A DNA stretch of 64,000 nt from Mesorhizobium huakuii. GTDB lineage: Bacteria > Pseudomonadota > Alphaproteobacteria > Rhizobiales > Rhizobiaceae. A program made the translations under genes and the position numbers. The notes under the pieces are model-generated. The model saw only the letters and a list, made by a program, of their open reading frames with translations, made no database searches and was not told the origin of the DNA. The stretch covers positions 4,398,001-4,462,000 of the forward strand of contig NZ_CP050296.1 in NCBI RefSeq assembly GCF_014189455.1, read 5' to 3'. This document shows, piece by piece, positions 25,039 to 62,667 of this stretch; positions within the stretch are counted from its first letter, which is position 1; every line of letters begins with the position of its first letter.

Positions 25039-25663
25039 CTATTTGAACATCTGCGCGGGAAAAGTGACGATTGCGGCCGTGCCATCGACAGACCCCATCG
25101 CCAGGTGCCGTCCGTCGCCGGACCAGGCGAGAGCCGTGACCGCGCTGCCCAGGGGCCTGACCAGGAGTTCGTCCCGCGCGCCGATCTGGGCGATGGTGAT
25201 CCGGCCGTTGGCGTAGCCCGCGGCAATCAGCCTCTTTTCCGGGTGCGCCGCCACCGCCTCGACCAGAACCAGCCCGGCGCGGCCCGTCTCCAAGGCACCC
25301 GAGGTTTCGCCGTCAAATGGCGGGGCGGTCATCGACCAGCCGGCGATCCGGAAGGCGCCCGAGGCAAACAGCGCATTCGCCGGCTGGCTCCAGCACACGG
25401 TGCGGACCGGGCGATGGAAACCCGGCGACGATGTCGGCGCGGCCATCGGCGAGGCTGACCAGCGCAAAGCCGCCGGCTTCGAGCCCGCAGGCCAGCCACG
25501 TGCCGTCTCTACTCCAGCGGATCGACACCGGGCGGGCTGAAAGGGGGATGTCACGGATCAAGGCCGCGTCGTCGTCGACCGCCCAGACCGACAGCCCTTC
25601 ATCAAGACCGAAGGCAAGTCGCCGCCCGCCTGGCGCACGAGGCTGCCTGCCGTACCCTTCTGC
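25039..25663 (-). pseudogene. WD40-repeat protein remnant, N-terminally truncated and frameshifted
   Basis: Two overlapping minus-strand frames carry successive WD40-like blades. The first (25663 to about 25411) includes GGRRLAFGLDEGLSVWAVDD, then SIRWSRDGTWLACGLEAGGF. The second (about 25410 to 25039) includes VRTVCWSQPANALFASGAF, then VAAHPEKRLIAAGYANGRI and ALAWSGDGRHLAMGSVDGTA. Deleting one G from the GGG at 25409-25411 (plus strand) joins them. The upstream frame is closed by a stop at 25664-25666 with no start codon before the first blade, so roughly the first 100 or more residues of a normal WD40 protein are missing. The gene is therefore broken in two ways, and the missing 5' end may mark a rearrangement point. 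Confidence 0.7.
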
Positions 25664-25892: not shown

Positions 25893-28441
25893 ATGCTCCG
25901 ACTTTGCGGATTGATCGCGGTCTTCCTTGTAGCGGCCCTTGCGAGCTTCGATGCGTCGGCCGATCGAAGGGTCGCCCTGGTGATCGGCAATTCCGAGTAC
26001 CGGGAAATCCCCGCTCTCAAGAACCCCGACAAGGATGCCGAGGACGTATCCAAGACATTCCGGCTGGCCGGCTTCGAAGTGTTCGTTGCCAAGGATTTGA
26101 CGAAGCTGCAGTTCGAAGAGCAGTTCCGCAACTACCTCGCGGCGGCGGACGGCGCCGATCTTTCCGTTGTTTATTATTCCGGCCATGGCTTTCAGATCGG
26201 CGGCGAGAATTTCCTGATCCCCGTCGACGCCTCGCTGAAGAATGCGGCCGACATAGAGGTCCAGGCGGTCAAGCTGGACGACGTCCTGCAGCAATTGCGC
26301 GCCAAATCGAAGATCCAGGTGATCATCCTCGATGCCTGTCGCAACAATCCATTTCCCCGCAAGGATTATTGGCTGAGGGACCAGCTGATCACGGCGGGCA
26401 ACACCGGTCTGGCGCAAGTCAAAAGCTCGCTGAACACGCTGATTGCCTTTGCCACCGAGCCGGGGGCGGTCGCCTATGATGGCGCGGGAGACCTCAGCCC
26501 CTTCTCATCCGCATTCTCGCGTCGGGCGCTGGCGCCGAACCAGGAGATACGCTCGGTCATGGCCGCGGTGCGCCGCGATGTGGTCGAGGCGACCGACGGC
26601 AAGCAGGTTCCCTGGGAAAATTCCTCACTCATCGACGAAGTCGTCCTGATGCGCCGGGCCAACCGGCCGTCGCTGCCGCCGGTTCTGGAGAAGGTCGTCC
26701 CGTCGGGTGTCGGACCTGTTGCCCTGGACCTGCCGGAACCGGTCGACGTCGACGGCGGATCGATCACCGTCAGCATCGAAAGGCCGCCAGCACTTGGGCG
26801 CCTGCTGCTGGACGGCAAGGCTGTCGCGGTCGGCGAACCGATCGAAGGCAGGGACCTGCCGCGCCTTAAGATGGATGTGCCCAAGGGCGTCGGTGCGCCC
26901 GAGGAAGTCGACATGCTGGCCTACGCCACGCATGACAATTGGGGTGGCCAATCCCAGGGCATCATGGTGTTCCGTGTCAAGAACGGCCAGGGCGCCGAGG
27001 GCGAACAGATTGTGGCCTCGCTCGAGACCGAGCAGAAGCAGCAGGTGCTGGAGCGGGGCATCCATATCACCGGTGCCGCCGAGGCGATCGAAAACCGTCA
27101 GATCAGCGTTCCGGTCGGTGTCGGACCGGTTCCGCTGAAGCTGGATTTCCCGACAAACGATCCCGCGGTCAGCTTGAAACTCGCGAGCTATCCGGCAACG
27201 GGAACCCTGTCCCTGCCGGATCGTGCCCTGTCACCGGAGTCGAGCCTGATGGCCGATGAGGTCGACCAGCTGCGCTACGAACCCCAGATCGGTGCGGCCG
27301 CGCCGGTCGAGGTCGGCTTCGAGATCCGGGCCGACAGCAGCTCATCCAAGCCCGCCACGATGAAGCTGTCGCCAAGCGTCGATCCCTGTGACCAGGCCGC
27401 CGGCGAGCCTCTCGACCTGCAAGGCGTCGTCCCTGGCCTGCTGCCGAATGAGATCGGCACTGAAGCCGTGAAGGCCTGCGAGGCGGCGGTGAAGGCCTAT
27501 CCCGATGTCGCCCGCTTCCGCTACGAACTGGGCCGGGCGCTGCTTGCGGCCGGCAAGGTCGAGGAAGCGGAGAAGGCTGTCGAGGACGCTGCCAAAAAGG
27601 GACATGTGCGCGCCGTCTTCGAACTCGGCTACATGTATTTCACAGGAACTGGAGTTGCTGTCGACCGATCGCAAGCTAACGCCTTATACAGGGCGGCGTC
27701 GGACAAGGGCGATCCCTACGGAATGACAGCGTGGGGGCGTATCTTGTTCACCGGCAACGGAGTTGAGCGCGATACCGGCAAGGGCCTCGACCTGATGCTC
27801 AAGGCGGCGGCAATGGGACACACCTACGCCATGAACGCACTTGCCGCGATCTTCACCGAGGGGGCAACGGCGTGACCGCCGATCCGGCCCGCGCCGTGGC
27901 CTTCCTGCAGGCCGGTGTCCAGCGGCAGGACATGTATTCTATGAACCTGCTCGGTCGTAATTATCTCAGCGGCCAGGGCGTCGAGAAGGACCCAAAGGCG
28001 GCGCTGGCCCTTTTCCAGAAGGCCATCGATCTTGGCCAGCCCTACGCTCCGGCCAGCCTTGGACGAATGTATCGGGACGGAGTTGGCATAGAGCGGAATC
28101 TTGCGGAAGCACAAAGACTATTTGAACTCGGTACCGCACGCGGCGACCAGTCTGGTGCGTATGATCGTGCGGTCCTCGAAATGGACAAAGGTACCAACGC
28201 CGACCAGGCAGTTGCCGTGCGGTATCTCGCATTCGCAGCTGCGCTAGATTTTCGCAAGGAACTACCTGACGTTCCGAAGACCCTCGCAAAGTTTGGCGTG
28301 AAGGCGAAAACAACGGCATTGAGAGAGCTGCGCCAGCAGCTCAAGTCGAAGATTCCTGTGTCCGGTTCGCTGGAAACTCAACTGGTGAATGTTGCCAGAG
28401 CGGTCTGGGAAGAAGCCAATCCGCGTCGGGATGTGTTTTAA
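25893..28441 (+). pseudogene. Secreted caspase-like protein with SEL1 repeats, interrupted by a one-base shift
   Basis: ATG 25893 has GAGGCA about 8 bases upstream and starts a signal peptide (LCGLIAVFLVAALASFDASA). A caspase p20-type domain follows, with the catalytic His in YYSGHGFQIGGENFLIPVD and the Cys in IILDACRNNPF. Residues about 265-520 hold two tandem copies of an unrecognised beta-rich unit, each starting near VGVGPVxL. SEL1-like repeats follow (VFELGYMYFTGTGVAVDRSQ). The frame stops at 27875, but the SEL1 series carries on in the next frame from 27872 to 28441 (LGRNYLSGQGVEKDPKAAL). Adding one G to the G5 run at 27860-27864 gives FTEGGNGVTADPARA and one protein of about 849 residues. 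Either the chain is truly truncated or the base is a sequencing error. Confidence 0.85.
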
Positions 28442-28458
28442 GCAACGAGGAGGCAGTC

Positions 28459-28785
28459 GTGGGCAGGGCATTGAAGCAAGCATTCGTCGGAACGGTTTTG
28501 TCCGTCGGTTTGGCAGGGCTCATGGGCTGCACCTCGCTAGCACCCAAATTCGAGCCGACGCCACTGCCGACCAAGCATCGGAGGGTCATTCATGCGACGC
28601 CTCCGACAAAGGTGGTCAAGCCCAAGAAGATGATCGTCAAGAAAGAGATAAAGCCGGCTGAGGAAACCTCTCAAACGCTACCTGCCATCCCTGCCATGGG
28701 CGGAGGCGGAACTGGGGGCGGAAGTAATAGTGGCGGAGGCGGGAGTAGTAGCGGCGGAGGTGGAGGCAACTGGGGAGGAGGTTGA
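28459..28785 (+). CDS. Small glycine-rich lipoprotein
   Basis: A 108-residue protein starts at GTG 28459 with GAGGAGG 7 bases upstream. The N-terminus is a lipoprotein signal ending in the lipobox GLMGC near residue 23. The mature chain begins TSLAPKFEPTPLPTKHRR, continues with a Lys-rich stretch (VVKPKKMIVKKEIKPAEE) and ends in a Gly/Ser tail (GGSNSGGGGSSSGGGGGNW). The basic middle and flexible tail suggest an envelope tether, but no function is known. It is 17 bases downstream of the SEL1/caspase gene and probably cotranscribed with it. Confidence 0.7.
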   Translation: MGRALKQAFVGTVLSVGLAGLMGCTSLAPKFEPTPLPTKHRRVIHATPPTKVVKPKKMIVKKEIKPAEETSQTLPAIPAMGGGGTGGGSNSGGGGSSSGGGGGNWGGG

Positions 28786-28938
28786 GGCGAACGCCCATTT
28801 GGGCGCCGCGGGCTGCCGCCGCATTAGTTCCGCCAAGACGTACCTTGGAGCGGCTCGCCAATTAGGGCCAAGTACTCTATGTTCTGCGACATCCGCGTGG
28901 TGTCGTGTCGATACGGTAGTCCTGGGCAGGGGCGGTCC

Positions 28939-30039
28939 ATGTTCGAAGTCGTCGCATTCTGGTGGAAGACAACGTCGAAAGGCCCTGCTGCAAGGGCTTT
29001 TGGCCTGATCGTCGCGCTCTGCGGCCTGCTGCTACTCGGATCACAAGCCGCAAACGCCGCGCCGAACTGGACGCTCGATCCCACCGCTTCGGTGATCACC
29101 TACCAGTCGGTCAAGAAGAACACGATCGTCGAGACCAACAAGATCAGGAACATCACCGGCACGCTGAGCGCGGCGGGTGATGCCAAGGTCACGTTCGACC
29201 TCAATTCGGTCGATACCGGCGTCGACCTGCGCAACGTTCGCATGCGCTTCCTGTTCTTCGAGACATTCAAATACCCGACCGCCGAGTTGACGGCGAAGGT
29301 GGATCCCGCCGCATTCGCCGATCTCGCGACAAAGCGCAGGGTGAAGGCAACGCTGCCGTTCCGCCTCAATCTGCACGGCGTCGACAAGGATCTCGAGGCC
29401 AGCGTCGTCGTAACCATGATCAGCGACAACATGGTGTCGGTTGCTTCGGAGGCTCCGGTCGCTGTCCATGTCGAGGATTTCGGCCTGCTGCCGAACATCG
29501 ACAAGCTGCAGCAGGCCGCCAACGTCACCAACATCGTGCCCACCGCGTCGGTATCGTTCGATTTCGTCTTCACCGCCGACGGCAGCAAGCCGGCCGCCAC
29601 CCCGACCACCGCGGCGAGTTCGGCCGATGTCGGCCCGGTTGCCACCGATGCCGCCAAGGCGAATTTCAGCGACGAGGAATGCCTGAACAGGTTCGCCGTG
29701 CTGTCGCGCACCGGCGCCATCTACTTCCGGCCAGCCAGCGCGCGGCTCGATGCGAAAAGCCGCCCCTTGCTGACCGAGGTTGAAGGTGTCGTCGGAAAAT
29801 GCCCGAGCCTGAAGGTCGAGGTCTCCGGTTATACCGATTCCGACGGCTCACCGGAGGCGAACAAGCAATTGTCGGAGCGCCGGGCCCAGGCGGTTGCCGA
29901 TGCCCTCATTGCCGCGGGCATTCCGCGCAACCAGGTCAGTTCCGCGGGCTATGGCGAGGAGCGGCCGGTTGCCGCCAACGATACGCCCAAAAACAAGGCG
30001 CTCAACCGGCGGATCGAATTTTCCGCGACCAAGCTCTGA
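28939..30039 (+). CDS. YceI-like domain fused to OmpA peptidoglycan-binding domain
   Basis: This 366-residue exported protein starts at ATG 28939 and has a signal peptide (AFGLIVALCGLLLLGSQAANA). Residues about 42-220 resemble the YceI lipocalin-like fold: WTLDPTASVITYQSVKKNTI, then VTFDLNSVDTGVDLRNVRMR and FFETFKYPTAELTAKVD. A Pro/Ala linker leads to an OmpA C-terminal domain at about 245-366. This has IYFRPASARLDAKSRPLL, then VEVSGYTDSDGSPEANKQLS and NKALNRRIEF. YceI proteins bind isoprenoid or amphiphilic lipids, and OmpA domains bind peptidoglycan, so this may hold a lipid carrier at the cell wall. I know of this pairing only as uncommon. The next gene starts two bases after the stop. Confidence 0.82.
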   Translation: MFEVVAFWWKTTSKGPAARAFGLIVALCGLLLLGSQAANAAPNWTLDPTASVITYQSVKKNTIVETNKIRNITGTLSAAGDAKVTFDLNSVDTGVDLRNVRMRFLFFETFKYPTAELTAKVDPAAFADLATKRRVKATLPFRLNLHGVDKDLEASVVVTMISDNMVSVASEAPVAVHVEDFGLLPNIDKLQQAANVTNIVPTASVSFDFVFTADGSKPAATPTTAASSADVGPVATDAAKANFSDEECLNRFAVLSRTGAIYFRPASARLDAKSRPLLTEVEGVVGKCPSLKVEVSGYTDSDGSPEANKQLSERRAQAVADALIAAGIPRNQVSSAGYGEERPVAANDTPKNKALNRRIEFSATKL

Positions 30040-30040
30040 G

Positions 30041-31291
30041 GTGGCGGTGAGGTCCGATCCGATCGCCCGTTGCGGTGGCCTCTTTCGCGCCGCCGCTCTC
30101 GCGCTGCTCGCCTTGCTGTTGACGTTGACGGCCGCCAGCGCCGAGCGCCGCGTCGCCCTTGTCCTCGGCAACGCCCAATATCAGCACGCGGCACCCCTCG
30201 CCAATCCGGTGCGCGACGCCCAGGCCATGGCCGAACGCTTGAAGAAGCTCGATTTCGAGGTGGTTTCCGGCTTCGACCTGACCAAGCCGCAGACGCAGGC
30301 GACCATCGCCCAGTTCGCAAAACAGGTGCGCGGTGCCGATATCGCGCTGTTCTTCTACGCCGGCCACGGCTTGCAGGTTTCGGGCAAGAACTACCTGCTC
30401 CCGGTCGACGCCGCGCTGGAGGACGAGACCTCCCTCGACTTCGAGGCCGTGTCGGTTGATTTCGTTTTACGCCAGATGTCGCGGGAGACCAGTATCAGGC
30501 TGGTGTTTCTCGACGCTTGCCGCGACAATCCCCTCGCCGAGGTGCTGGCCAAGACGGCGGGCGTCCATGGCGCGAGCAGCGGCCTCGCCGAGATCCCGAT
30601 CGAGAATGGTGGCGCCGGCACGCTCGTCGCCTTCGCCGCCAGCCCCAATCAACTCGCCTATGACGGGTCGGGCGAACATTCGCCGTTCACCGCCGCACTG
30701 CTTCAGCACATCGGCGAATCCAACGTCTCCATCACCGAGGCGATGAACAGGGTGACCGGTGATGTCTTCAAGGCAACCGCCGGCAAGCAGCGCCCCTGGC
30801 TCAATGTATCGCTGACCACGGAGGTCGTCCTGCACAAGGTCGATCTCAATGCGCCATTGATCGTGGGCGAGGCGAGCACACCTCAGGCCGAAGGCGGCTC
30901 CGACGCGCGCAACACCGGCGCTGCCGGGGCGTCAGGCCAAAGCAACGATCAGCTGGCGCTCGACGTGCTGCGCCAGAAAATCCCCAAACTGGCGTCGGAT
31001 GCCCCGATCCTTTTCAACCATCCGGTCGATTTCGGCGACGCGGCAATCGACGGCAAGAGCATCGCCGAACTGATCAAGGGCAAGCCGCTGTTCAGCCCGG
31101 TGGAGGGGTTGGACAAATCGGTCTGGGAGGGCAAGCACTGCGACGGCTGCCATGAATGGAACGAGGCACGGCTGTGCGATCAGGCGAAAAATTTCGCCGC
31201 CAACGATGTCTCTGTCTTGCGCCTGCAACATCCGCTGGGAACACGCTTCAAAGTGGCGCTTGCCAAATGGGCGCAAGGCGGCTGCAAGTAG
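30041..31291 (+). CDS. Secreted caspase-like protein with C-terminal CXXCH motif
   Basis: No ATG fits, so the start is a GTG at 30041 or 30047. It is followed by a signal peptide (LFRAAALALLALLLTLTAASA). The caspase p20-type domain has its His in FFYAGHGLQVSGKNYLLPVD and its Cys in LVFLDACRDNPLAEVL, so the dyad is intact. After a Ser/Gly/Ala-rich linker comes a C-terminal region of about 90 residues ending with EGKHCDGCHEWNEARLCDQ. The CDGCH (codons from 31139 to 31153) is a formal c-type haem site in a protein predicted to be exported, where such haem attachment is possible. Two further Cys occur nearer the C-terminus. It begins two bases after the YceI-OmpA gene, indicating one transcription unit. 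Confidence 0.83.
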   Translation: MAVRSDPIARCGGLFRAAALALLALLLTLTAASAERRVALVLGNAQYQHAAPLANPVRDAQAMAERLKKLDFEVVSGFDLTKPQTQATIAQFAKQVRGADIALFFYAGHGLQVSGKNYLLPVDAALEDETSLDFEAVSVDFVLRQMSRETSIRLVFLDACRDNPLAEVLAKTAGVHGASSGLAEIPIENGGAGTLVAFAASPNQLAYDGSGEHSPFTAALLQHIGESNVSITEAMNRVTGDVFKATAGKQRPWLNVSLTTEVVLHKVDLNAPLIVGEASTPQAEGGSDARNTGAAGASGQSNDQLALDVLRQKIPKLASDAPILFNHPVDFGDAAIDGKSIAELIKGKPLFSPVEGLDKSVWEGKHCDGCHEWNEARLCDQAKNFAANDVSVLRLQHPLGTRFKVALAKWAQGGCK

Positions 31292-31336
31292 GCAGGAAGC
31301 AGCGGTTTCCATCCGATTTCTGTCGGGATGGCGGCT

Positions 31337-31912
31337 CTAATATGCATCCGCCGATTGGCGCAACGCCTCGATCTCGGCCATCTGGATGCCCATTTCGACA
31401 AATGCCGAAAGAACGGCAAACCGGTCCGCGAGCGCAACACGGGCCAGTCCGGCCAGAATCCCGGCATTGACCGCATGGGCGGCAGGAAATGGTTGCAAGG
31501 CCGGTGCCATCGTTGCGGCCGTAGCCGAACTGTCGCGCCATCCGGCAGCCAGCGCAATCCAGCCGACCGGCGTTGTCGGTGGTGTCACTGCCGCTGCGCT
31601 GACGGCTGCCCGATGGCGGGGATTGTCCGGTTCACCCACCCAGTCGCCAATATGCGCAAGCAATTCCTGATCGGTGCCATCGAACAGCTCGGTCAGATGG
31701 CTCAGGCATTCATGCGCCCACCAGACCGCGGCCCGCTCGGGAAGCAAATAGGCACAGAAGGTAATCGCTTCTTCGGGAACGCGTCCGGCGAGCAGGTCGC
31801 GGCAAAACGCGATCGAGCTTTGGTCGGTTGGAAGGGTTTTCATGTCCCGGGCAATAGCGGGGCAAGCCGTGAAAAGATCTCGTGCCGTCTTGAATCGGAG
31901 CCCATTGGCCAT
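31337..31912 (-). CDS. Protein of unknown function, possibly DUF6931-like
   Basis: This 191-residue protein carries no signal peptide or catalytic motif that I can identify. It begins MANGLRFKTARDLFTACPAI, is Trp/Ala-rich in the middle (YLLPERAAVWWAHECLSHL), and has a hydrophobic Ala-rich C-terminal third. The ATG at 31912 has AAGG 10 bases upstream; a GTG three codons earlier overlaps that site. The overall look recalls short helical proteins (DUF6931-type) seen in type VI loci, but that assignment is tentative. It is convergent with the caspase gene at 31291 and is the only minus-strand gene in this stretch before the third caspase. Confidence 0.6.
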   Translation of the reverse strand: MANGLRFKTARDLFTACPAIARDMKTLPTDQSSIAFCRDLLAGRVPEEAITFCAYLLPERAAVWWAHECLSHLTELFDGTDQELLAHIGDWVGEPDNPRHRAAVSAAAVTPPTTPVGWIALAAGWRDSSATAATMAPALQPFPAAHAVNAGILAGLARVALADRFAVLSAFVEMGIQMAEIEALRQSADAY

Positions 31913-32103
31913 GATCGCCACGCCTTCATCGAGAAGCCTTGGCCACTCAAGCCTTAGGCCGGGCGCTGGTCAAGTCTCAACCCGTGCCGCGGTAACACCC
32001 ATCGGCACGATCATGCCCACCAGCGTTTATCGACAGACAATTGCCATGAACTTTGGTATCGTCATGATCGTCGAAATCGGATGCTCAAACAGGAGTAACC
32101 GCT

Positions 32104-32640
32104 ATGCAGTGGGGCAGGTCAGCCTTTGTGTTGGCGGTGGTGTTTTTCTCGACCCACGCTTCCGCCGATCCCGTTCAGAAATCAGAAGACATCGTGAAGT
32201 TTTTCACTGGCGCCGCCGACCTCGGCAAGTCACGGGGAATTTGCGTCGGCACCGAGGAGGAGTGCAAAAGCAAGACCAAGGCAAAGGACGCGCCGGGCGA
32301 AAAATCCAGCCTCGATATGCTGATCAATTTCGGCTTGGATTCGGCCACGCTCGACACCACCGCGCGCGCTGAGCTCGATGAGTTCGCCAAGGCGCTGAAG
32401 GACAGCCGGCTGAGCACGTTCAGCTTCGTCGTCGAAGGCTATACCGACGCCACCGGCACGGTGCATTACAATGAAGGCCTGTCGCAACGGCGTGCGAAAT
32501 CGGTGGCAGCCTTCCTGACGGCCAGCGGTGTCGATCCCAGCCGCATCAACGCGATCGGCATGGGCGAGAAGAACCCCCGCAGCCCCAACCCGTACGATCC
32601 GGTCAACCGCCGCGTGGAAATGCGGATCAAGACGCAGTAG
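32104..32640 (+). CDS. Small exported OmpA-domain protein
   Basis: This 178-residue protein has a clear ribosome site (AGGAGTAA) before ATG 32104 and a signal peptide (FVLAVVFFSTHASA). The C-terminal 110 residues form an OmpA-type peptidoglycan-binding domain. It has LINFGLDSATLDTTARAELD, then FVVEGYTDATGTVHYNEGLS with the conserved Asp, and NPYDPVNRRVEMRI with the conserved Asp and Arg. The N-terminal mature part holds a Cys pair (GICVGTEEECKSK) that may form a disulphide. It probably sits on the cell wall in the periplasm. A 12-base inverted repeat follows 30 bases after the stop. Confidence 0.85.
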   Translation: MQWGRSAFVLAVVFFSTHASADPVQKSEDIVKFFTGAADLGKSRGICVGTEEECKSKTKAKDAPGEKSSLDMLINFGLDSATLDTTARAELDEFAKALKDSRLSTFSFVVEGYTDATGTVHYNEGLSQRRAKSVAAFLTASGVDPSRINAIGMGEKNPRSPNPYDPVNRRVEMRIKTQ

Positions 32641-32670
32641 CGCGCTAGAATTACGTCAAAACAAAGAGTT

Positions 32671-32709
32671 AGAGCAATTCACCGTTCCCGAGAAACAGTG
32701 AATTGCTCT
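32671..32709. terminator. Perfect 12-base inverted repeat between convergent genes
   Basis: AGAGCAATTCAC (32671-32682) is matched exactly in reverse complement by GTGAATTGCTCT (32698-32709) around a 15-base loop. It lies between the stop of the OmpA gene (32640) and the stop of the third caspase gene (32715), where a bidirectional terminator is expected. No T-run follows either arm, so it may instead be a copy of a dispersed rhizobial palindrome. Confidence 0.5.
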
Positions 32710-32714
32710 GGGTG

Positions 32715-34343
32715 TCAGTGTTTAAGCACGCCTCCAATCGCCACACCGGCGCCGAAGATCAGTGCCTTGGTCAGGAAGTCGTTGTCGCGCCGGCGTGGCG
32801 GAGGATCATCCAGCCGAACCATGGTCTCGCGGTTGCGCCACTTCGAAACGACCAGTTGTTGCTTGCGGGGCTTCTGTGCCACCGGCCTCATCGTGCGGGC
32901 CTTCTGCGCAACCGGCTTCTTCGGCTGCGCCGTACGGGCCTGATCGGCGGCATATCCGGCACGCACGGCTTCCATCATCGGATCCGACTGGATCACGAGG
33001 AACGCCAGTTGCTCGCGCGTCAGATAGGTGGTTTGCGGCAGTCCGTTATCGGCTTGCCAGATGCCGATCGCCTCACGGGTCTGAGGGCCCAGTGTTCCGT
33101 CGATGCGCCCAATCGCGTTGCCCAATGCTTCGAGCCGCAACTGCAGGTCGATGCGGCCCTGGCGGTCGAGGCCGATTGCACTTTCCGTCAACTCGGTGCC
33201 CGGCGTCTGCTTCATCTCGTCTGGAACGCTGACCGAGGTGCGCACGGCAGAGCCGGAACCGGCGTTCGCCTGGTTCGTATCGAGGGCCGCGACCTGCCGG
33301 TTTTGAGCGTTCGGGCCGTTCAATTCGTCGATGTTCAGCCGCGCCACGGTGGCGAAGCGACCGTTCGGAAACTGGTCGAGATAGGCTTGGTAGAACGGAC
33401 CGGAATTGTGCTTCACAGCCTCGTCCCAAAGACGTTGCTCGACCTCCCACGAAGGAGAATCGCCGGCGACAGGGGCGGGAGCGGATGTCGCTGCTGCGTT
33501 CGCTGCGTCGGCAACGGGATTTGCCGCCGGCGCCGCCGCCGCGACGGGTTTCCCAAGGAAAACCTCGCGTCCCAGCGATGCGTTGTGCCACGGCCGCTGG
33601 CGACCTTGCGTGGTTTCCGTCACTTCGCCGCGCACCCGCGTCAGCGCGCTCTGGATTTCGACGCCGGGTTCGGTCAGATGCCTGGCGAGCGCCGTGGAGT
33701 AAGGGCTGTCGGTTCCGTCGCCGTCGAAAGCGATGGCGCCAGGATCCGTTGCATAGGCAATCAGCAGGCCGCCAGTACCGACGCCGTCCGATCTCGCTTC
33801 GACCGGCGCCAGACCGGTGCCCAGCGAGGTGGAGCGGCTCTTCGGCAGCGAGGCCGCCAGCGTCCTTGCCAGCGGATTGTCGCGGCAGGCATCGAGGATG
33901 ATGACGCCAATCGCCGGGTCGGGCGGCAACGCGGCCATGAAATCGTCGATCTGGATGGTGCGGGTCTTGAGATAGGCTGGCGACGTCAAATCGGCGTCGA
34001 CCGGGATCAGGTAGTTCTTGCCGTCGACCTGCATGCCATGACCGGCATAGAAAATGACCGCGAGGTCGGCGTCATAGGCTTGCTCGGTAAATCGGCTGAT
34101 GAGGTTGTGCATGCCTGCATTGTCCTGGTCGACCCCTTCGATCACCTCGAAGCCGGCATTGCGAAGCGTCGATGCGATGAGGCGGGCATCGTTGGCGGGG
34201 TTGGGCAAGGTGACCGCATGGACATAGTCGCTGTTGCCGATCACCAGCGCGACGCGCTTGGCGTCAGGCGCGGCGGCCTCGACGCCGAAGGCGGCAAGGA
34301 AAACCAGGATAATCCCGCTCAGAAAGACCGTGATCGTTCTCAT
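32715..34343 (-). CDS. Secreted caspase-like protein with peptidoglycan-binding domain
   Basis: This 542-residue protein has a signal peptide (VFLSGIILVFLAAFGVEAAA). GAGGG lies upstream of ATG 34343. The caspase p20-type domain spans about residues 28-270, with its His in IFYAGHGMQVDGKNYLIPVD and its Cys in IILDACRDNPLARTL. A linker region (about 300-370) contains WDEAVKHNSGPFYQAYLDQF, a sequence often found after such domains. A peptidoglycan-binding type 1 domain follows near 405-465 (LGNAIGRIDGTLGPQTREAI). The tail is basic and ends with a Gly/Ala-rich hydrophobic stretch (LIFGAGVAIGGVL) that may contact the membrane. It is the third protein with an intact His-Cys dyad in 8.5 kb. Confidence 0.88.
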   Translation of the reverse strand: MRTITVFLSGIILVFLAAFGVEAAAPDAKRVALVIGNSDYVHAVTLPNPANDARLIASTLRNAGFEVIEGVDQDNAGMHNLISRFTEQAYDADLAVIFYAGHGMQVDGKNYLIPVDADLTSPAYLKTRTIQIDDFMAALPPDPAIGVIILDACRDNPLARTLAASLPKSRSTSLGTGLAPVEARSDGVGTGGLLIAYATDPGAIAFDGDGTDSPYSTALARHLTEPGVEIQSALTRVRGEVTETTQGRQRPWHNASLGREVFLGKPVAAAAPAANPVADAANAAATSAPAPVAGDSPSWEVEQRLWDEAVKHNSGPFYQAYLDQFPNGRFATVARLNIDELNGPNAQNRQVAALDTNQANAGSGSAVRTSVSVPDEMKQTPGTELTESAIGLDRQGRIDLQLRLEALGNAIGRIDGTLGPQTREAIGIWQADNGLPQTTYLTREQLAFLVIQSDPMMEAVRAGYAADQARTAQPKKPVAQKARTMRPVAQKPRKQQLVVSKWRNRETMVRLDDPPPRRRDNDFLTKALIFGAGVAIGGVLKH

Positions 34344-34507: not shown

Positions 34508-36922
34508 TCAAAGCGTATTCTGAATCGAGCCGATGAGGGCGGTGACGGCCTGCTTGTATTTTTCGAACTCCGGCGATGTCTGGCGGATCTCCGTGGTCGT
34601 CGGCGGCGGGGTGGCGTCGGTGGCCACCCGGCTCAGCTTCTGGCCCATCTTCCTTTCCGCCCAGTCCACCACATAGCTGGCTGTCTTGCCGGTGAGAAAC
34701 GGGTTGGCCTGGATGACGGCCGCCCCAAGCACTGCGCTCAGTTGCGCCGAACCCGGCGCCGACAGCACCTGGTGCGCGCCTTCCATGCCGAGGAAATGGC
34801 AGAGATAGAGCCGGCCGGCTGTGATCTGGTGGCCGCGCGCCCGCAGATAGGCCTCGCCTTCGCGTGCCAGATTGCGCACCATCTCACGCGAAATGGTGGC
34901 GTCGTAGCGCAAGGCCAAGAGGTCGGCGGTCGACAGTGTGCGCGCAAGTTCCGGGCGATAGGTGTTCATCATCCGGATCCAGGTCTTGGTTATGAACTGG
35001 CCGGCGCCGGTCGCCGACGAATTCGGGTTCTTGGCGCGGGCGCTGCCGCCGCTTTCGACATGAACGATCCGCTCGGTCAGCGTTTCGACGGCAACATCGC
35101 CGGAATTACCGGAATTGCCAGTGTCATAGGTGGCGACCGTGGGGGCCGTCCCCAGCGGATCGATTGCCTCGCCGTTCTGGTAGAGCTCGAAATGCAGGTG
35201 CGGGCCGGTCGAAAGCCCGGTGGTGCCGATATAGCCGATGACGTCGCCGGCCTTCACCTTGGTGCCGACGCCGCTCGCAATGGCGAATTTTTGCATATGC
35301 GCGTAGCGCGTCTCGCGGCCGTTTGGGTGCGAAATCTTCACCAGATTGCCATAGCTGCCGCCATCGCCTTGAAAGCTGATCTCGCCGTCGAAGGCCGCCA
35401 TGATCGGCGTGCCGACAGGGGCTGCCCAATCGACACCCTTGTGGATACGAACGACGCCGAGGATCGGGTGCTTGCGCGGGCCGAAGGTCGAGGTCATCAC
35501 CCCGTTCACCGGCGTGACCATGCCGTTGGCGACGTTGAGCGAGCGCACTTCGTCATTGCCGGTGACGCAGGCGAACTGGCCGTCGCTCTGTTGGAAGACG
35601 AAACAGTCGATGGTCTTCTCACCGCCCTGGACGCCGACATAAAGCACCCGCCCGGACGTCTCGTCCTTGCCGCGCGGCGTCTGCGAGTAGATCAGCACCA
35701 GGCGCTGGTCCTCGCTGGCGAAGGCGTCGAGGTCCTGTCCTCGCGACAGATACATGATCGCCTCGCCGATGACGCCGGTTGGAACCTTGTTGCGCGCGGC
35801 CGTCGAATAGATCGCGTCGAGGAGGCGATATTGCCGCTTGGGCCCGCCTTGATCGGTACCGGAATAGTTGAACAGGTCCTCGCGCACCCAGGGGTCGACA
35901 CCCGACACGAAGGCGCCCGCGGCATTGCGCGTCAGCGTGCCGACAAAGACATTCTTGGCGTAGATCGAAACCTGCATGAGCGACATCGTCGTCGTCTCGC
36001 GGTTCGGCCGGAATCCGCGCATGGCAACGACATAACCCGGCTCCAGGCTGTCGCGGTTGAACAGGCTCTTCAGCGCCTCGCCTGCGAGCTTGGCGTCGTC
36101 GGCGGAAAAATGTGCATCGAGCGCAACACTGTCCAGGCTGCGGTCGTTGAGGATCTTCACGAACGTGTCTTCGGTCGCCTCGAAGCGCTGGTACTCGCTG
36201 GTCACGGTTGCGACGGTCGTATTGTTCTCGATCTGGGTCTTCTTGAAGGCGGGCAGCGCTGCCTCGCCCTGATCGATGGTCTCTCCCCAGCCGGCCTCCG
36301 GGTCGTCGGCATCCGCCTTGGGCGCCGAACCGGCCGGGGCCTCGCTCGCTTCGGGTGCCGCCTGAAGGTCATTGTCCAGGTCGCCCTGCTGGTCGTCCGG
36401 TGCCGCCGGGGCAGGCGGAGCGGCCTGCTCGGCGGGTGCGGCAGCCGGAGATGTCGGGGCGGTCCGCCGCTGTGCCTGGAAGAAGGCGAAGTCCTCCTGC
36501 GTCGACGGGATCGTCGTCATGAACTTTTCGCTGGCGCTCAGCATCACGTCGGAGAGGATCTCGATCTGCGGCGAGGCGCCGGAACTGTCGAGCTCGGCCG
36601 GGCGCGCCACCGTATGGCCCTTGCTTGCCGTGTCGGCATCGGGCGCTAGCGTGATCCACATCGGATCTCCCGCCAGGTCGATGATGGCGGGCACATAGAC
36701 GGATGCATCGGCAGGCACATCATCCGCACCTTCGACCGCGTGCAACTCCTCGTCTTCGTCACCGAACGACCAATAGTCCGCGGTGAAGTAGAAACCGGCG
36801 GCGATGGACAGCAGGATCACTACGGCGAAACCGGCAAGGAGCCTGCGCCAAAGCGTGCGCCTGCGCAGCGCGGCGCGCGCCTGCTTTTTCTCTCTGAAGC
36901 TGGTGTCGATACTGTGCGTCAC
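34508..36922 (-). CDS. Membrane-anchored M23 endopeptidase fused to an SLT-type lytic transglycosylase
   Basis: This 804-residue protein has a short basic cytoplasmic end and one membrane span at about residues 28-46 (LLAGFAVVILLSIAAGFYF), so the body faces the periplasm. A long linker with a Pro/Ala-rich part precedes an M23 domain at about 475-590. The zinc ligands lie in IHKGVDWAAPVGTPI and the catalytic pair in GPHLHFELY. A second domain at about 615-740 looks like an SLT/lysozyme-like fold (VESGGSARAKNPNSSATGAG, then FITKTWI). The start is a GTG at 36922 overlapping the DUF1036 stop as GTGA. Cutting both peptide and glycan bonds, and lying in the PpkA-PppA operon, it could open the wall for secretion-system assembly. 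A secreted effector role is less likely given the anchor. Confidence 0.85.
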   Translation of the reverse strand: MTHSIDTSFREKKQARAALRRRTLWRRLLAGFAVVILLSIAAGFYFTADYWSFGDEDEELHAVEGADDVPADASVYVPAIIDLAGDPMWITLAPDADTASKGHTVARPAELDSSGASPQIEILSDVMLSASEKFMTTIPSTQEDFAFFQAQRRTAPTSPAAAPAEQAAPPAPAAPDDQQGDLDNDLQAAPEASEAPAGSAPKADADDPEAGWGETIDQGEAALPAFKKTQIENNTTVATVTSEYQRFEATEDTFVKILNDRSLDSVALDAHFSADDAKLAGEALKSLFNRDSLEPGYVVAMRGFRPNRETTTMSLMQVSIYAKNVFVGTLTRNAAGAFVSGVDPWVREDLFNYSGTDQGGPKRQYRLLDAIYSTAARNKVPTGVIGEAIMYLSRGQDLDAFASEDQRLVLIYSQTPRGKDETSGRVLYVGVQGGEKTIDCFVFQQSDGQFACVTGNDEVRSLNVANGMVTPVNGVMTSTFGPRKHPILGVVRIHKGVDWAAPVGTPIMAAFDGEISFQGDGGSYGNLVKISHPNGRETRYAHMQKFAIASGVGTKVKAGDVIGYIGTTGLSTGPHLHFELYQNGEAIDPLGTAPTVATYDTGNSGNSGDVAVETLTERIVHVESGGSARAKNPNSSATGAGQFITKTWIRMMNTYRPELARTLSTADLLALRYDATISREMVRNLAREGEAYLRARGHQITAGRLYLCHFLGMEGAHQVLSAPGSAQLSAVLGAAVIQANPFLTGKTASYVVDWAERKMGQKLSRVATDATPPPTTTEIRQTSPEFEKYKQAVTALIGSIQNTL

Positions 36923-37329
36923 GGATTGCTTCCGGTCAGGAAGAAGGTCCACCGCACCTGCTCGAGCGTATCGACTTCGAGAAATTGCGCCGCGATATGG
37001 CCGCGCTGCCAGCATTCGTCGATGCCGCGGATCGAAAACCGCCGCCGCTCGATGCACATCTCGGTCGATCCGGTCAGGATCGCATGGCCGAACACATCCG
37101 TGGCATAGATGTAGATGTAGCGGTTCGTCAGTTCCTCGCGGATGACGTTCACGCATTGGTTGGCGCCGATGGTCCACCAGCCGTCGGTCTGGTCCGCATT
37201 GTCGACCTTCTGGCCGACCGCCAGATTGACGACGTCGAGTGTCTGGTTGCAGACCGTGAATTCGGCGCGCGCTTCGCCGGACGCCAACACGGCCAGCAAT
37301 GCCGCTCCAGCCATGATCGCGAGCCTCAT
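36919..37329 (-). CDS. DUF1036 family exported protein
   Basis: The product is 136 residues from the chosen ATG at 37329, which places a signal peptide (LAIMAGAALLAVLASGEARA) at the N-terminus. The in-frame ATG at 37419 would put 30 non-hydrophobic residues before it. The mature part has the DUF1036 pattern: FTVCNQTLDVVNLAVGQKVD, then DGWWTIGANQCVNVIREEL and YIYIYATDVFG. Several Cys suggest disulphides in the periplasm. The molecular role of the family is unknown. It lies 100 bases downstream of the kinase gene and is coupled by a four-base overlap to the M23/SLT gene. Confidence 0.75.
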   Translation of the reverse strand: MRLAIMAGAALLAVLASGEARAEFTVCNQTLDVVNLAVGQKVDNADQTDGWWTIGANQCVNVIREELTNRYIYIYATDVFGHAILTGSTEMCIERRRFSIRGIDECWQRGHIAAQFLEVDTLEQVRWTFFLTGSNP

Positions 37330-37431
37330 GCGGCCGGTCAGGGCAAGCAGGGCTCGAGCCGGATCACGCTGCTCTATCGGCAGGTCGGCAGGAGGCAAAC
37401 ACGCGCGGCGGAGTTCCATCGGGCGTCCATG

Positions 37432-40005
37432 CTATCCGCCGAGCCGGAAATACTTGGCAGTGGCTGAAAATTGCGATCCGTCGGTCTCGATCTCCTCGAG
37501 AATTTTCGGCAGCACCACCGAGGCCGGCATCGGCGTGGAGATGGCCGCCGCCTGGATATCCTGCGGGCCGGTGATCACCATGATGATCTGCGGCACGGCC
37601 TTCCCAGTGGCCTTATCGGCGGCGCCGAGGCCAATCGGAATGCTGAAGGTAGCCTTGTCCGATTGCGCGACGATGCGGTCGTCGAGATTGAACACCATGC
37701 CCTTGTGATCGATCAGCAGCACGCTGGAAATGAGCCCGCCGCGCGTCACCAGCGTGCCGCTGATCGGCGTACCATCAGGCACCGATGTCCGGTCGAGAAC
37801 AAGCTGCGGCTTGTCGGCCGCGGTCTGCCCGAGGAAGCGCAGAAAGTTGGTGACTTCGCATTGGCTCGGCTCGATGAGGCGGACGCTGATGTCGGGTTCG
37901 ACATGGAATTTTGCCTGGAAGTCGCCGAGCATCCGTTCGAATGGCTGCACCGCCGTGCCAAAACCTTCGATCGCGGCGGCCTTGTCGGTTGACGATGTCA
38001 TGGTCGCATAGAAACAGTCGCCGCCGCCGAAGTCGCGAACCCAAGAGACACGTTGCGCGAGGTCGTCGACGACCGGAGGGATCGCTGGTTTGGGCACATT
38101 CAACGCGACGACAGCCTGGTCCGGCTGTTTGGCCGGCGGTGGCGAGGCGTTTTGGCTCTCAGCGTTCGCGGTATCCGTCTGGCTCGCAGTGGGCTTAGGC
38201 GCCGGCACGGTCGCCTTGGGCGCTGCCGGCGGGCTGATCTGAGGCCTGGGCTTCGGGGGCTCCACGGCCTCTGGCTGGGCCGGCGGCGGCGTTGAGACCT
38301 TCGCGGCTGGCGGGGCTGGAGCGGTTGTGACAGGCGGCGGAGCTGTCGTTTGACTGCCGCTGGCCATCTTGTCCGGCTGGATTGCCGGCGGTGCCTTTTC
38401 GGGCGGCTGCTGCGCTTCGGTTGCGGATGGCTTCAGGGGTGTCTCCGTTTTCGGGGCAACAACGGGCTTCGCGGGCTCCGGCGTCTGCACGGTCTTGGTA
38501 TCTGCCTGGCTTGCAGCCGATGGCGCACTCGGCTCCGTTTGCGGTTGCGCTGCCATCATCGGCGGCTTCGGGGGTTGCTCGGCAGGCGAGGGGGCTTCGG
38601 CAGGCTTGGCCGGCTGCGGCTTTTGAGCCGCCTCTGGCTGATTTTCAGCCGGCTGTGCGCTGGCCTCCGGTTGCGCGGGCGGAATTGGCTTTGCCGGCTC
38701 GGGCGGGCTTGCGACTTTGTCCGTCGGGATCGGCTTCGATGGTTCTGGCGCAGGCTTTGGTGGTTCGGGTGAAAGCGATGTCTTGCCGACAGTCGGCGTC
38801 GCCGGCGTCATGAAGCCGCCCAGGTACAGGCCGGCGCCTGTAGCGACAGCCAGCGTCGCCAGGGCAGCGATTGCGATGGTTCGGGTTCTTGCGGGTTTTG
38901 CGGGGACATTGCTTGCGGCCATGCGTGGCGGGCTGGGGGCTGCCGGAGGCCGCGGTTCGGACAGATGCGCGGGCCGGACATGCGGGACGAAGCGCTGCTC
39001 ACCCGGACCCGTTGCCGTCGCCGCGCTGTGCCCCGCGACATTGGATGGCTGGGGCTGTGCCTTGGGATCAGGGATAAGGGTATGCCCCGCCGCTGGCAGA
39101 GCCGGACGGTCGCGGGGCGTCCGGGATGGCGGCGGTGTTGTCGCTTCGTCTTCGTCGCGCGTCATCCTGGCGATATCAGCCATGCTGTCCGGCCGGTCCT
39201 GCGGATCCGGTTGCAGCATGGCTTCGACAATGCCACGGAAATCCTCGTCGATGTCGGAGAGATCGGGCACGGTCCGGCGCTTTTCGATGATCTCGAACTG
39301 TGATCCGCTCATGTCGATCGGCTTGCCGCGCAGCGCGGCCGCCAGCACCAGCCCAAGGCTGTAGATGTCGGACTGCTCGCTGACGTCGCCGCTGTACAGC
39401 CCGAGCTGTTCGGGTGAAACGTAGTTGTACTTTCCCGCGAACTTTCCGCCGATCAGCGTCTCCCCGCCCACCGTCGCCGATCGCGCTATGCCGAAATCGA
39501 TGATCTTCGCGCGGTCGACCCGGCCTCCCGGCAGGATGATGTTGTCGGGCGAGAGGTCGCGATGGATCGCGCCCGCCTGATGCACGGCACTCAGGCCGGA
39601 TGCGAGGCGATGGCAGAGCTTGCGCACCTCTTCCGTCGGCATCGGCCCACGTCGCATGATGTCGAACAGCGACTCGCCGTCGACGAATTCCATGGCGAGA
39701 TAGGGACGGCCGATCCCGGGATCGATGGTGAAGACGTGGTATCGCACGACCGCGTCATGCGACAGATGGTTGAGGATCGAGGCCTCCTTGCGGAACAAGG
39801 ACAGGATGGTCTGGTCACGGGCAAACTCGGGCAGCACGATCTTGATCGCGACGTGGTCTCCGGTCTGGATGTTGTGGCCACGGTAGACCTCGCCCATGCC
39901 GCCGAATGCGATCCGCTCGTCCAATTCGTAGATGCCGCTGAGCTGTGTGCCGACGGCGGTGTTGGCCACCTGCGGCGATATTCGCGTCTTGTCGTCGGCG
40001 CTCAT
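37432..40005 (-). CDS. ppkA: Serine/threonine protein kinase, PpkA type
   Basis: This 857-residue transmembrane kinase belongs to the type VI threonine-phosphorylation pathway. The kinase domain spans about residues 25-285, with IAFGGMGEVYRG (glycine loop), VAIK (ATP Lys), IHRDLSPDNII (catalytic loop) and IIDFGIAR (metal loop). The catalytic loop has Ser where HRDLKxxN has Lys. A membrane span lies near 375-396 (IAIAALATLAVATGAGLYL). It is followed by a long Pro/Ala/Lys-rich region to about 640 and a C-terminal periplasmic domain with no recognised fold. Known partners are PppA, which reverses the reaction, and FHA proteins, which read it; both are encoded here. Its ATG overlaps the PppA stop by one base (TGATG). 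Confidence 0.9.
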   Translation of the reverse strand: MSADDKTRISPQVANTAVGTQLSGIYELDERIAFGGMGEVYRGHNIQTGDHVAIKIVLPEFARDQTILSLFRKEASILNHLSHDAVVRYHVFTIDPGIGRPYLAMEFVDGESLFDIMRRGPMPTEEVRKLCHRLASGLSAVHQAGAIHRDLSPDNIILPGGRVDRAKIIDFGIARSATVGGETLIGGKFAGKYNYVSPEQLGLYSGDVSEQSDIYSLGLVLAAALRGKPIDMSGSQFEIIEKRRTVPDLSDIDEDFRGIVEAMLQPDPQDRPDSMADIARMTRDEDEATTPPPSRTPRDRPALPAAGHTLIPDPKAQPQPSNVAGHSAATATGPGEQRFVPHVRPAHLSEPRPPAAPSPPRMAASNVPAKPARTRTIAIAALATLAVATGAGLYLGGFMTPATPTVGKTSLSPEPPKPAPEPSKPIPTDKVASPPEPAKPIPPAQPEASAQPAENQPEAAQKPQPAKPAEAPSPAEQPPKPPMMAAQPQTEPSAPSAASQADTKTVQTPEPAKPVVAPKTETPLKPSATEAQQPPEKAPPAIQPDKMASGSQTTAPPPVTTAPAPPAAKVSTPPPAQPEAVEPPKPRPQISPPAAPKATVPAPKPTASQTDTANAESQNASPPPAKQPDQAVVALNVPKPAIPPVVDDLAQRVSWVRDFGGGDCFYATMTSSTDKAAAIEGFGTAVQPFERMLGDFQAKFHVEPDISVRLIEPSQCEVTNFLRFLGQTAADKPQLVLDRTSVPDGTPISGTLVTRGGLISSVLLIDHKGMVFNLDDRIVAQSDKATFSIPIGLGAADKATGKAVPQIIMVITGPQDIQAAAISTPMPASVVLPKILEEIETDGSQFSATAKYFRLGG

Positions 40006-40784
40006 CAGCCTCGGCCCTCCGCTCTGGACAGATCAGGGTGGAGCGATTGTCCATTGCGCTCGTTTGCGATCTTCACCAGTACAATGGTGACATTGTCGGT
40101 TCCGCCCCGCGCCAGCACCGTTTCCAAAAGATTTTCGCAGGCCGCTTGAGGCGTTGCCGACACCACCGCTGCCTCGATCTCCGCGTCGGTGACATGGGCC
40201 GTCAGCCCATCGGTGGCCAGCACAAAAATGTCCCCCGGCATCAGTTCGCCCTGCTGGAAGTCGATGACGAAGTCGTCGCTGACGCCGACCGCATGCGTGA
40301 TGACATTGCGGCGTGGCCAGGTGAGCGCCTCGGCCGCGCTGATCATGCCTCGGTCCAAGAGTTCCTGCACCTCGGTATGGTCCTTCGAAATCTGCGAGAT
40401 CGCGGCGTTGCGGATCAGGTAGACCCGGCTGTCGCCCGCCCACAGGCAGGCAAACCGTCCGTCCATCGCCAACAGGGCGGCGACCGTGGAGCCGATGGTT
40501 ATGCCGCGCGATTCCGATATGCCGCGGATTTCAGCATTGGCCCGGCTCAGCCTGTCCTCGAAGCGCGCCCGCAGATCCGGAGCCGAGCTTGCGATGCCGA
40601 TCGTGGCGAGATGGTCGACAATGCTGGCCGACGCGACTTCTCCGGCGTCATGCCCGCCCATTCCGTCGGCCACCACCCAAAGCCCGGTTCGTGGCTCAAG
40701 CAGATAATTGTCTTCGTTAACCTCGCGGACACAGCCCTTATGGCTCACGCCAAAGCTGTCAAAGGGAAGGGCGACATCGCTCAC
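40005..40784 (-). CDS. pppA: PP2C-family protein phosphatase, PppA type
   Basis: This 259-residue PPM/PP2C phosphatase removes phosphate from Ser/Thr using two metal ions. Motifs in order are GCVREVNEDNYLLE, LWVVADGMGGHDAGEVAS, ACLWAGDSRVYLIR, FVLATDGLTAHVTDAEI and GGTDNVTIVLVKI. The metal-binding Asp residues are in ADGMGG, ATDG and TDN. It is the first gene of the phosphatase-kinase-DUF1036-M23/SLT run and is coupled to the kinase. Its expected job is to reverse PpkA phosphorylation of the FHA-linked assembly switch. About 160 bases separate it from TssM1 upstream. Confidence 0.92.
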   Translation of the reverse strand: MSDVALPFDSFGVSHKGCVREVNEDNYLLEPRTGLWVVADGMGGHDAGEVASASIVDHLATIGIASSAPDLRARFEDRLSRANAEIRGISESRGITIGSTVAALLAMDGRFACLWAGDSRVYLIRNAAISQISKDHTEVQELLDRGMISAAEALTWPRRNVITHAVGVSDDFVIDFQQGELMPGDIFVLATDGLTAHVTDAEIEAAVVSATPQAACENLLETVLARGGTDNVTIVLVKIANERNGQSLHPDLSRAEGRG

Positions 40785-44507: not shown

Positions 44508-44529
44508 GGCCGCTTCCAACCGGCCCTGC

Positions 44530-46020: not shown

Positions 46021-46269
46021 GGCCGATCGTCCGTCCACGCCCGGCACCCGCGCTCTTGCCGGACAGGCGCAAGGCCGCTCGCGATCGGGTAAAACAAAGG
46101 CAGGCCCTGACGACCAGGGCAGTGTCTTGAGGACGGTCGGCTACACCTTACTATCCCGCCGTATGATGACATTTGCCGCAGACCCCCAGGTCGATAAGCC
46201 TTACCCGCTTGGCGAATTGTCGTATGCGATCGTAATCTCAGAAACTCTCGATTGGAACCGAATGCCGGC

Positions 46270-47322: not shown

Positions 47323-47572
47323 CCAGGATCGCCACCGAATGCTGACCGATACTCCACATTCTAGCAGTTTGCACATCCAACAGGACAGCGGCGTTTCGAG
47401 CCGATGCATCGACATGGTAAGGTTTTGCTGTCGTGCATGCTCTTTGGTAGGCGCGACAACATGTGGTAGGCTCAACATGGCCTGGTGCGGCGGGCCCTGA
47501 AAAGTTCCCGATGAGCTGGCGGGAACTTCAAATCCACCGCGCCGGCGGCCGCGTCCAGGAGGGGCACGACCC

Positions 47573-55453: not shown

Positions 55454-55978
55454 TTAGAATTCCACCGTTTCGGCCGGTGCCGCGCGCATCGCCGGCAAGG
55501 CATTGGCAGCGAGATCCTGGATGTCGGCGAAACTGAACTCTTTGACCTGCCAATCATCACTCCAGAATGCAATTCGTTGCGGATCACCAGCCGAGCCGGG
55601 AGGAGGTAAATCCTGCAGTTGCTCGGCCAATCTTGTTTGCGGCCAATAGTCGCCGACACAACTCTGGATGAGCGCCACGACGGCGTCGAACCACGGATCG
55701 AGGGGCTCCGGCGGTGGGCCCAACCGCACGATGGCGAATGGATAGCGCCGGCCGACGCGATCCTCGCTCATCCGCCACACGCCGGCGCAGGGCTGGTCGC
55801 CGAAAATGCCAGCCTGGATGATGAAGCGCCATGCGCGGGTGTCGAGGTCTCCCTCGTCGGGCCGCGCCAGCAATTCCATCGACATCCAGCGGTCCCAGCG
55901 GTCGATGAAAGTCCGCGGCAGGTTGGCGGCGACGAAATCTCCGGTCGCCGGGATCTTGCCGAAGAATCCGGTGTTCAT
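55454..55978 (-). CDS. tagF: Type VI secretion-associated protein TagF (SciT)
   Basis: This 174-residue protein has the family start NTGFFGKIPATGDFVAANLP, then RTFIDRWDRWMSMELLARPD and FGDQPCAGVWRMSEDRVGRR. TagF acts in the cytosol as a post-translational repressor of assembly and is a partner of the PpkA-PppA-FHA pathway in known systems. The ATG at 55978 overlaps the TssM2 stop as ATGA; an ATG five codons upstream (55993) is an alternative. It lies between TssM2 and the toxin gene on the same strand. Confidence 0.9.
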   Translation of the reverse strand: MNTGFFGKIPATGDFVAANLPRTFIDRWDRWMSMELLARPDEGDLDTRAWRFIIQAGIFGDQPCAGVWRMSEDRVGRRYPFAIVRLGPPPEPLDPWFDAVVALIQSCVGDYWPQTRLAEQLQDLPPPGSAGDPQRIAFWSDDWQVKEFSFADIQDLAANALPAMRAAPAETVEF

Positions 55979-59511: not shown

Positions 59512-59512
59512 C

Positions 59513-60837: not shown

Positions 60838-60838
60838 C

Positions 60839-62664: not shown

Positions 62665-62667
62665 GTT

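Follow-up and report, generated by a model that had tools for sequence, protein, structure and literature searches.

What do three caspase-like proteins that look exported do beside a type VI secretion system (T6SS)? The question is raised by a block at positions 25893–34343 of a 64,000-nt stretch of Mesorhizobium huakuii DNA (GCF_014189455.1, NZ_CP050296.1 positions 4,398,001–4,462,000; hereafter the window, whose coordinates are used), which sits on a 7.1-Mb contig of an 8.45-Mb genome. The block contains three genes with a Pfam C14 caspase domain, here called CasSel, CasCxx and CasPGB, together with a predicted lipoprotein, a YceI-OmpA fusion, an OmpA protein and an antisense DUF6931 gene. 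We found that one type of Mesorhizobium T6SS regularly includes the block, and that a putative M23 peptidase encoded next to it (M23/SLT) travels with the T6SS, a DUF1036 protein and a PpkA/PP2C pair, often beside an exported-looking caspase-fold and predicted wall-binding protein. The explanation that we favour, which we place midway between doubtful and probable, is that the cluster serves one alphaproteobacterial T6SS type as an accessory module in the envelope, in which wall-bound proteins would gate M23/SLT and proteolysis would be optional.

The three caspases each have the C14 p20 fold with the His-Cys dyad of orthocaspases (C14B-like). CasSel (dyad SGHG/DACRNNP at 26184/26337) is encoded by two open reading frames (ORFs). 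The first (25893–27875, +; 660 aa from the ATG at 25893; C14 E = 3e-42) specifies a signal peptide, the C14 domain, a middle region without assignment and TPR/Sel1 repeats, and the second (27872–28441, +; Sel1 E = 1.9e-14) continues the Sel1 repeats in another frame. CasCxx (30047–31291, +; C14 E = 2.2e-43; AGHG/DACRDNP at 30365/30518), for which a GTG start was picked by likeness to homologues, consists of a signal peptide, the caspase and a C-terminal domain of about 100 aa with a CXXCH motif at 31139–31153. CasPGB (32715–34343, −; C14 E = 5.4e-44; AGHG/DACRDNP at 34040/33887) has a signal peptide, the caspase domain, a PG_binding_1 domain (E = 7.8e-10) and then a glycine-rich hydrophobic C-terminus. 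Signal peptides and the lipobox were judged by eye, aided for the caspases by conservation that starts at the hydrophobic stretch, and all three proteins look exported to the envelope. A preliminary description of this DNA had proposed three periplasmic-looking caspases with intact dyads and Sel1, CXXCH and peptidoglycan-binding attachments, located in the envelope and mixed with a lipoprotein, a YceI-OmpA fusion and an OmpA protein, and the profile matches, the located motifs and a lipobox-like LMGC agree with it on each of these points. It did not have CasSel as two ORFs, and it omitted the antisense DUF6931 gene inside the block and the M23 and DUF1036 genes just outside.

The split of CasSel is due to a frameshift at 27866–27881, where the two parts overlap by 4 nt (stop/start). 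The gene is a single ORF in 44 of 45 orthologues (838–1022 aa between stops; the shortest is cut by a contig end), the window genome being the sole exception. The dyad was present in 45/45, 42/43 and 38/39 orthologues of the three caspases, and both misses were shortened ORFs. Median dN/dS values were 0.115, 0.147 and 0.195 (8, 6 and 8 non-independent pairs), and the window-type caspases are thus under purifying selection. The genome carries 13 C14 genes, 11 of them scattered over its largest contig, and the chance that three of these 11 fall within 8.3 kb was about 6e-4 in a simulation with uniform placement. Of solved structures, MALT1 was the nearest both in sequence (E = 4.1e-18) and in fold, and with it acidic positions in xDLT and LDxCR are common in the alignment; these positions are presumably part of the MALT1 specificity pocket. 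This likeness would fit cleavage after basic residues, the probable preference of the paracaspase-like domain.

The link to the T6SS was examined in 81 Mesorhizobium genomes including that of the window, which had DUF6931 in 65, TssM in 68 and C14 in at least 76. DUF6931 marks one T6SS type in the genus, and the loci compared comprised at most 20 kb of DNA surrounding this gene in the 65 genomes and in five genomes of other genera in the family sample; 53 loci were complete on both sides of the block. One of the 65 (L051, genome G132) has a different T6SS type and lacks the block. M23, PpkA, PP2C or TssM lay on the stretch in 63 of the remaining 64 loci, and DUF1036 also in 63. All 53 complete loci contained the OmpA gene of the block (OmpA2), M23, PpkA, PP2C and TssM, as well as at least one of the three caspases (by score, CasSel in 40, CasCxx in 36 and CasPGB in 33), and all seven non-empty combinations of caspases occurred. 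Shortened CasPGB ORFs were seen in L058, L113 and L114, the first two of which are counted among the 33 positives. DUF6931 and OmpA2, a few hundred bases apart in most loci, are separated in L108 by some 7 kb of other DNA. M. ciceri WSM1271 lacks CasPGB and has CasCxx and another caspase nearby; an autotransporter gene occupies the usual place of CasSel there (L246 15527–18706). A search for remnants in the gaps of CasPGB-less loci was unreliable, as some of the query ORFs had long upstream extensions, and no claim is based on it.

The 13 TssM-negative congeners had no orthologue of CasSel, CasCxx or CasPGB; the best of their 34 C14 matches reached 212 bits versus at least 489 for true orthologues. 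All 41 C14 matches in these genomes and four further ones were read. The fragmented genome G128, with TssM present and DUF6931 not found, had CasSel and CasPGB, the latter adjoining M23 and PpkA. Among 62 public loci that carry a CasPGB relative, 56 had T6SS neighbours; in the other six the relatives are at most 51% identical and some are on short contigs. The T6SS link, which the preliminary description had put forward in refutable form, therefore held for these caspases. It does not hold for the C14 family at large, since at least 53 of 111 order-level genomes had C14 at E≤1e-25 and only 16 had TssM. The DUF6931 stretches of the five genomes outside the genus had no match to the caspases or to the M23, PpkA, PP2C and TssM of the window and are therefore uninformative on the link.

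Next to CasPGB, the M23 gene (34508–36922, −; M23 E = 1.5e-33; GTG start at 36922) encodes a predicted T6SS peptidoglycan hydrolase with a transmembrane-like segment and a C-terminal region resembling lytic transglycosylases, for which the SLT match was below cut-off and seen in the M23 relatives of genomes G497 and G114 only (E = 0.004–0.005). The DUF1036 gene (36919–37419, −; E = 5.1e-32) overlaps it by 4 nt, and M23 is thus flanked by DUF1036 and CasPGB. Relatives of this M23 gene were found in 15 plasmid records (Mesorhizobium 5, Paracoccus 5, Sagittula 3, Phyllobacterium 2), and in all 10 records examined the relative lay among annotated tss genes with DUF1036. The gene order was DUF1036, a counterpart of CasPGB, M23 in Sagittula, Paracoccus, G643 and G660, and counterpart, M23, then a more distant DUF1036 in Phyllobacterium and G114. 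In G233 a Sel1-type caspase lies about 1.1 kb past the M23 gene with one gene between. The M23 relative was found in one of 20 genomes in the family of G233 (G233 itself) and in four of 120 in that of G497, including G497. A class-level search was swamped by generic enzymes (253 of 337 genomes at 1e-30), and G497 alone stood out among the matches listed. Caspase and M23 genes both look frameshifted in Phyllobacterium sp. 628 (L255 4925–8596), and in T6SS loci of Sagittula and Paracoccus (L247, L248, L250–L254) the DUF1036-M23 cassette has ExbB/ExbD-type genes next to it.

The M23 neighbour encodes an exported-looking protein in every case examined but M. ciceri. The versions in Phyllobacterium T1293, G114 and G643 carry an intact caspase domain. 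In G497 C14 is still recognised (E = 1.2e-8) and the catalytic His is lost, and alignment to G497 together with residual motifs suggests that the proteins of Sagittula (MA-2 and E-37, two copies each) and Paracoccus aminophilus probably carry a decayed caspase. Paracoccus alcaliphilus, Paracoccus sp. TOH, Paracoccus aminovorans and G660 have no caspase domain. The C-terminal end, which resembles peptidoglycan-binding domains, is homologous across the intact, degenerate and caspase-less states (hhalign E = 7e-13, 5e-13 and 1e-42) and has the tail G-x-(F/Y)-R (for example L249 6899–8299, L251 7652–8467 and L161 18190–19803), or G-I-G-R in one Sagittula copy per strain read. The same tail also ends a second small protein in L241 (10649–11197, −). 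The degenerate N-termini were not aligned to the intact caspase by hhalign, so the step from intact to degenerate caspase can only be inferred. CasPGB matches the intact-caspase set over the caspase domain; its wall-binding end differs and lacks the tail. CasPGB and its outside counterparts thus share the same plan with separate origins.

A similar retention was seen for CasCxx. A search with its C-terminal domain gave 122 homologues, of which 120 were listed, and all 120 have both C14 and CXXCH. The nucleophile is lost in 10 of them, three of which have lost the His as well; the dead-dyad homologues that keep CXXCH are P0087, P0104, P0108, P0109, P0111, P0112, P0115, P0116, P0118 and P0119. 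Residues C365, C368, H369, W371, C377, H395 and C413 are invariant in a 55-row alignment. The domain has no Pfam match at E≤5 and, modelled alone, gave a low-confidence model (pLDDT 50.6); that it binds heme, as a c-type cytochrome would, or metal is a guess. The exported-looking YceI-OmpA fusion (28879–30039, +; YceI E = 2.5e-13, OmpA E = 1.6e-22) is its apparent partner, as the presence of the two genes matches in 53 of 53 complete loci. YceI proteins bind lipids or quinones. Judging by these homologues, the dyad is not the conserved core, since the dyad or the whole caspase domain is lost while the CXXCH or wall-binding part is kept. Of the preliminary description, a wall-linked set tied to the T6SS is supported, and its emphasis on catalysis only in part.

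A FastTree phylogeny of 54 C14 domains (10 of 64 sequences were dropped as the crop motif failed) placed the three caspases in three lineages. CasCxx grouped with a paralogue without a window-type T6SS gene nearby (support 0.925), CasSel with another such paralogue (1.0), and CasPGB with a protein of an alphaproteobacterial metagenome-assembled genome (MAG) that has no window-type T6SS neighbours on a 12.7-kb stretch (0.998). The G114 and G643 caspases form a fourth line (0.996). The three caspases were therefore recruited separately, and tandem duplication in place is ruled out by the tree. A CasSel paralogue far from the T6SS (L244 9095–11062) seems to be fused at its C-terminus to the small glycine-rich lipoprotein type, and an OmpA gene adjoins a 50%-identity CasPGB relative in an alphaproteobacterial MAG, again with no window-type T6SS neighbours on the stretch (L223 633–2776).

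In the favoured explanation, the wall-binding protein would sit on the producer's own peptidoglycan and place or gate M23/SLT, so that the wall would be opened only where the TssJLM complex crosses. An active caspase domain would add a proteolytic licence by cutting M23/SLT or a partner, and a protein with a decayed caspase domain would still work as a scaffold or inhibitor. In Mesorhizobium the Sel1 and CXXCH caspases, the latter with its YceI-OmpA partner, were recruited separately into this locus and would probably feed additional signals into this step or into the PpkA switch. Wall-bound gating is proposed because of the adjacency of caspase and M23, the likeness to MALT1 and the precedent of TagX, of which the full-length protein appears inactive and a C-terminal proteolytic fragment active (PMC5061870; this and most other papers are cited from partial text). 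The relatives without a protease part hint at a role in the machine's crossing of its own wall rather than in cell killing. A narrower form, which we consider a tentative possibility, is that the wall-bound periplasmic caspase is a licensing protease that activates M23/SLT, or restrains it as a pseudo-caspase, with a redox or heme input from the CXXCH caspase and YceI-OmpA.

Several results weigh against wall-bound gating. CasPGB is missing from 20 of the 53 complete loci, with M23 retained, and no basic M23 residue co-varies with CasPGB presence in 61 sequences; the lone CasPGB-associated column of the M23 alignment lies upstream of the likely start. These results speak against a direct cut of M23. 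Only 1.6 of 53 loci would be expected to be empty if the caspases were distributed independently, so the presence of at least one in every locus is not significant alone. M. ciceri WSM1271 has just an OmpA gene at the CasPGB place. Outside the genus, G233 is the only order-level TssM genome with C14 on a TssM stretch among the matches listed, several of these genomes being in pieces, and the G114 cassette lies about 23 kb from its TssM, adjoining an FHA gene. The wall-binding match of the M23 neighbours is weak, being above the Pfam cut-off in G114 only (PG_binding_2) and elsewhere at E = 0.003–0.04 or nil, and the four Sagittula proteins and the P. aminophilus protein have no C14 match at E = 0.5. 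Finally, the likeness of CasPGB to the G114 and G643 proteins is convergent, because they belong to another C14 lineage and CasPGB lacks the tail.

Four other explanations were weighed. The caspases, OmpA, YceI-OmpA and lipoprotein could form a periplasmic threat or envelope sensor that detects damage and signals to the outer region of the PpkA kinase, as TagQRST does elsewhere; TagQ-T are detectors of incoming attack (PMC7614798). PpkA and PP2C near the module in all 53 loci, and add-on domains that suit sensing (Sel1, CXXCH), speak for such a sensor. We nevertheless consider it unlikely, as Pfam scans found no domain common to the caspases and PpkA, and in Sagittula and Paracoccus the counterpart stands between the DUF1036 and M23 genes, on a displayed stretch that has no kinase. 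It is somewhat harder still to believe that the caspases are passengers, genes of unrelated duty collected at the accessory end of a T6SS locus. The many scattered C14 genes of the genome, the free combination of the three caspases and the shortened CasPGB copies are what such collecting might leave. However, the caspases are absent from TssM-negative congeners and under purifying selection, and caspase-fold proteins recur beside the same M23 and DUF1036 genes in other families.

Two further explanations give the caspases a protective or lethal duty. As exported-looking, T6SS-linked proteases they might destroy T6SS effectors that reach the producer's own periplasm, yet over 13 kb separate the block from the VgrG/PAAR module, and in other genera versions without an active caspase hold the place beside M23; self-protection of this kind is improbable. 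The preliminary description had also suggested processing of incoming toxins, for which the analysis gave no positive evidence. A function in programmed cell death or anti-phage defence is hardly credible. All three caspases partially match the PADLOC caspase profile (E = 1.9e-13 to 9.5e-6), but they have signal peptides by eye and a constant T6SS context, and a scan of six block proteins found no caspase-type defence partner, just a ZorB/OmpA-type match of YceI-OmpA.

The envelope module has precedents in part. Prokaryotic orthocaspases and metacaspases share the fold, the dyad, Sel1 and peptidoglycan-binding add-ons and OmpA in operons (PMC3501461, PMC6426788), and pseudo-versions of C14 are frequent in Rhizobiales, 561 of 582 being in Alphaproteobacteria (PMC6426788). 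The term type VI was not found in the text of PMC3501461; the caspases described here belong to a conserved T6SS cassette that also encodes an M23 enzyme. TagX of the Acinetobacter T6SS is likewise a T6SS-encoded inner-membrane peptidoglycan hydrolase whose active form is seemingly a C-terminal fragment; it is an L,D-endopeptidase related to phage Ply500, unlike the M23 plus SLT-like enzyme beside a caspase or pseudo-caspase described here (PMC5061870). As Pfam gives M23, the likeness to TagX is in working only. TagV and other peptidoglycan-binding Tag proteins are also wall-binding accessory proteins in T6SS clusters, but TagV is an SH3b lipoprotein, in contrast to a caspase with PG_binding or a C-terminal end alone with the G-x-(F/Y)-R tail (PMC7614798). 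In a survey of polymorphic toxins, caspase domains are regarded either as toxins or as domains that process toxins (PMC3482391, from the part seen). The Mesorhizobium T6SS locus type is mentioned in PMC8546570, in the accessible part of which no caspase was found, and none was found in the text of PMC10215855 on the Rhizobium etli T6SS. MALT1 is eukaryotic and cytosolic, and differs in having no signal peptide, CXXCH or wall-binding part. Our literature searches, which left most subscription papers outside their scope so that an earlier description is possible, found no paper in which caspase homologues belong to the producer's T6SS apparatus. Caspases that are probably exported, and caspases with wall-binding domains, are already in print (PMC3501461, partial text).

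The remaining genes of the block encode a small glycine-rich predicted lipoprotein (28459–28785, +), which is poorly conserved and gave no credible match in a Pfam scan, the DUF6931 protein (31337–31921, −; E = 9.5e-36), in which no signal peptide was seen, and the exported-looking OmpA2 (32104–32640, +; OmpA E = 1.7e-22). Beyond DUF1036 follow a PpkA-type Ser/Thr kinase (37432–40005, −; Pkinase E = 3.5e-42) with a transmembrane segment by eye and a C-terminal region past it, a PppA-like PP2C phosphatase (40005–40784, −; E = 2e-11), a first TssM with IcmF domains (40944–44519, −), TssL with an OmpA domain (44530–46047, −; DotU E = 9.7e-54, OmpA E = 3.2e-13), the FHA protein TagH (46270–47631, −; T6SS_FHA_C E = 3.8e-47) and VgrG (47573–49897, +), whose hub/PAAR module (DUF2169/PAAR) runs on to 55659. 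Profile matches placed a second TssM, a second TssL (two overlapping ORFs, 59513–60837), TssK, TssJ and a second TagH at 55975–63867 (−), and TssF, TssE, Hcp, TssC, TssB and TssA were found past the window end. Core tss genes therefore adjoin the block. One T6SS cluster (40944–63867) thus has two TssM, two TagH and two TssL, and two TssM matches were also seen in most TssM-positive congeners. A WD40-type fragment just outside the block (25039–25554, −) was matched in this genome only among 70 fetched loci.

For most bacterial caspases a native role has yet to be established, and safe opening of the producer's own wall by the T6SS has been worked out in few species. The recurring cassette unites these two questions. 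Its natural variants form a series, with an active caspase, a pseudo-caspase or none, on which the function of the caspase fold and the importance of protease activity can be studied directly. If the licensing form were true, the protease cascade would not involve cell death; through it the cell would open its own wall only under an assembling membrane complex.

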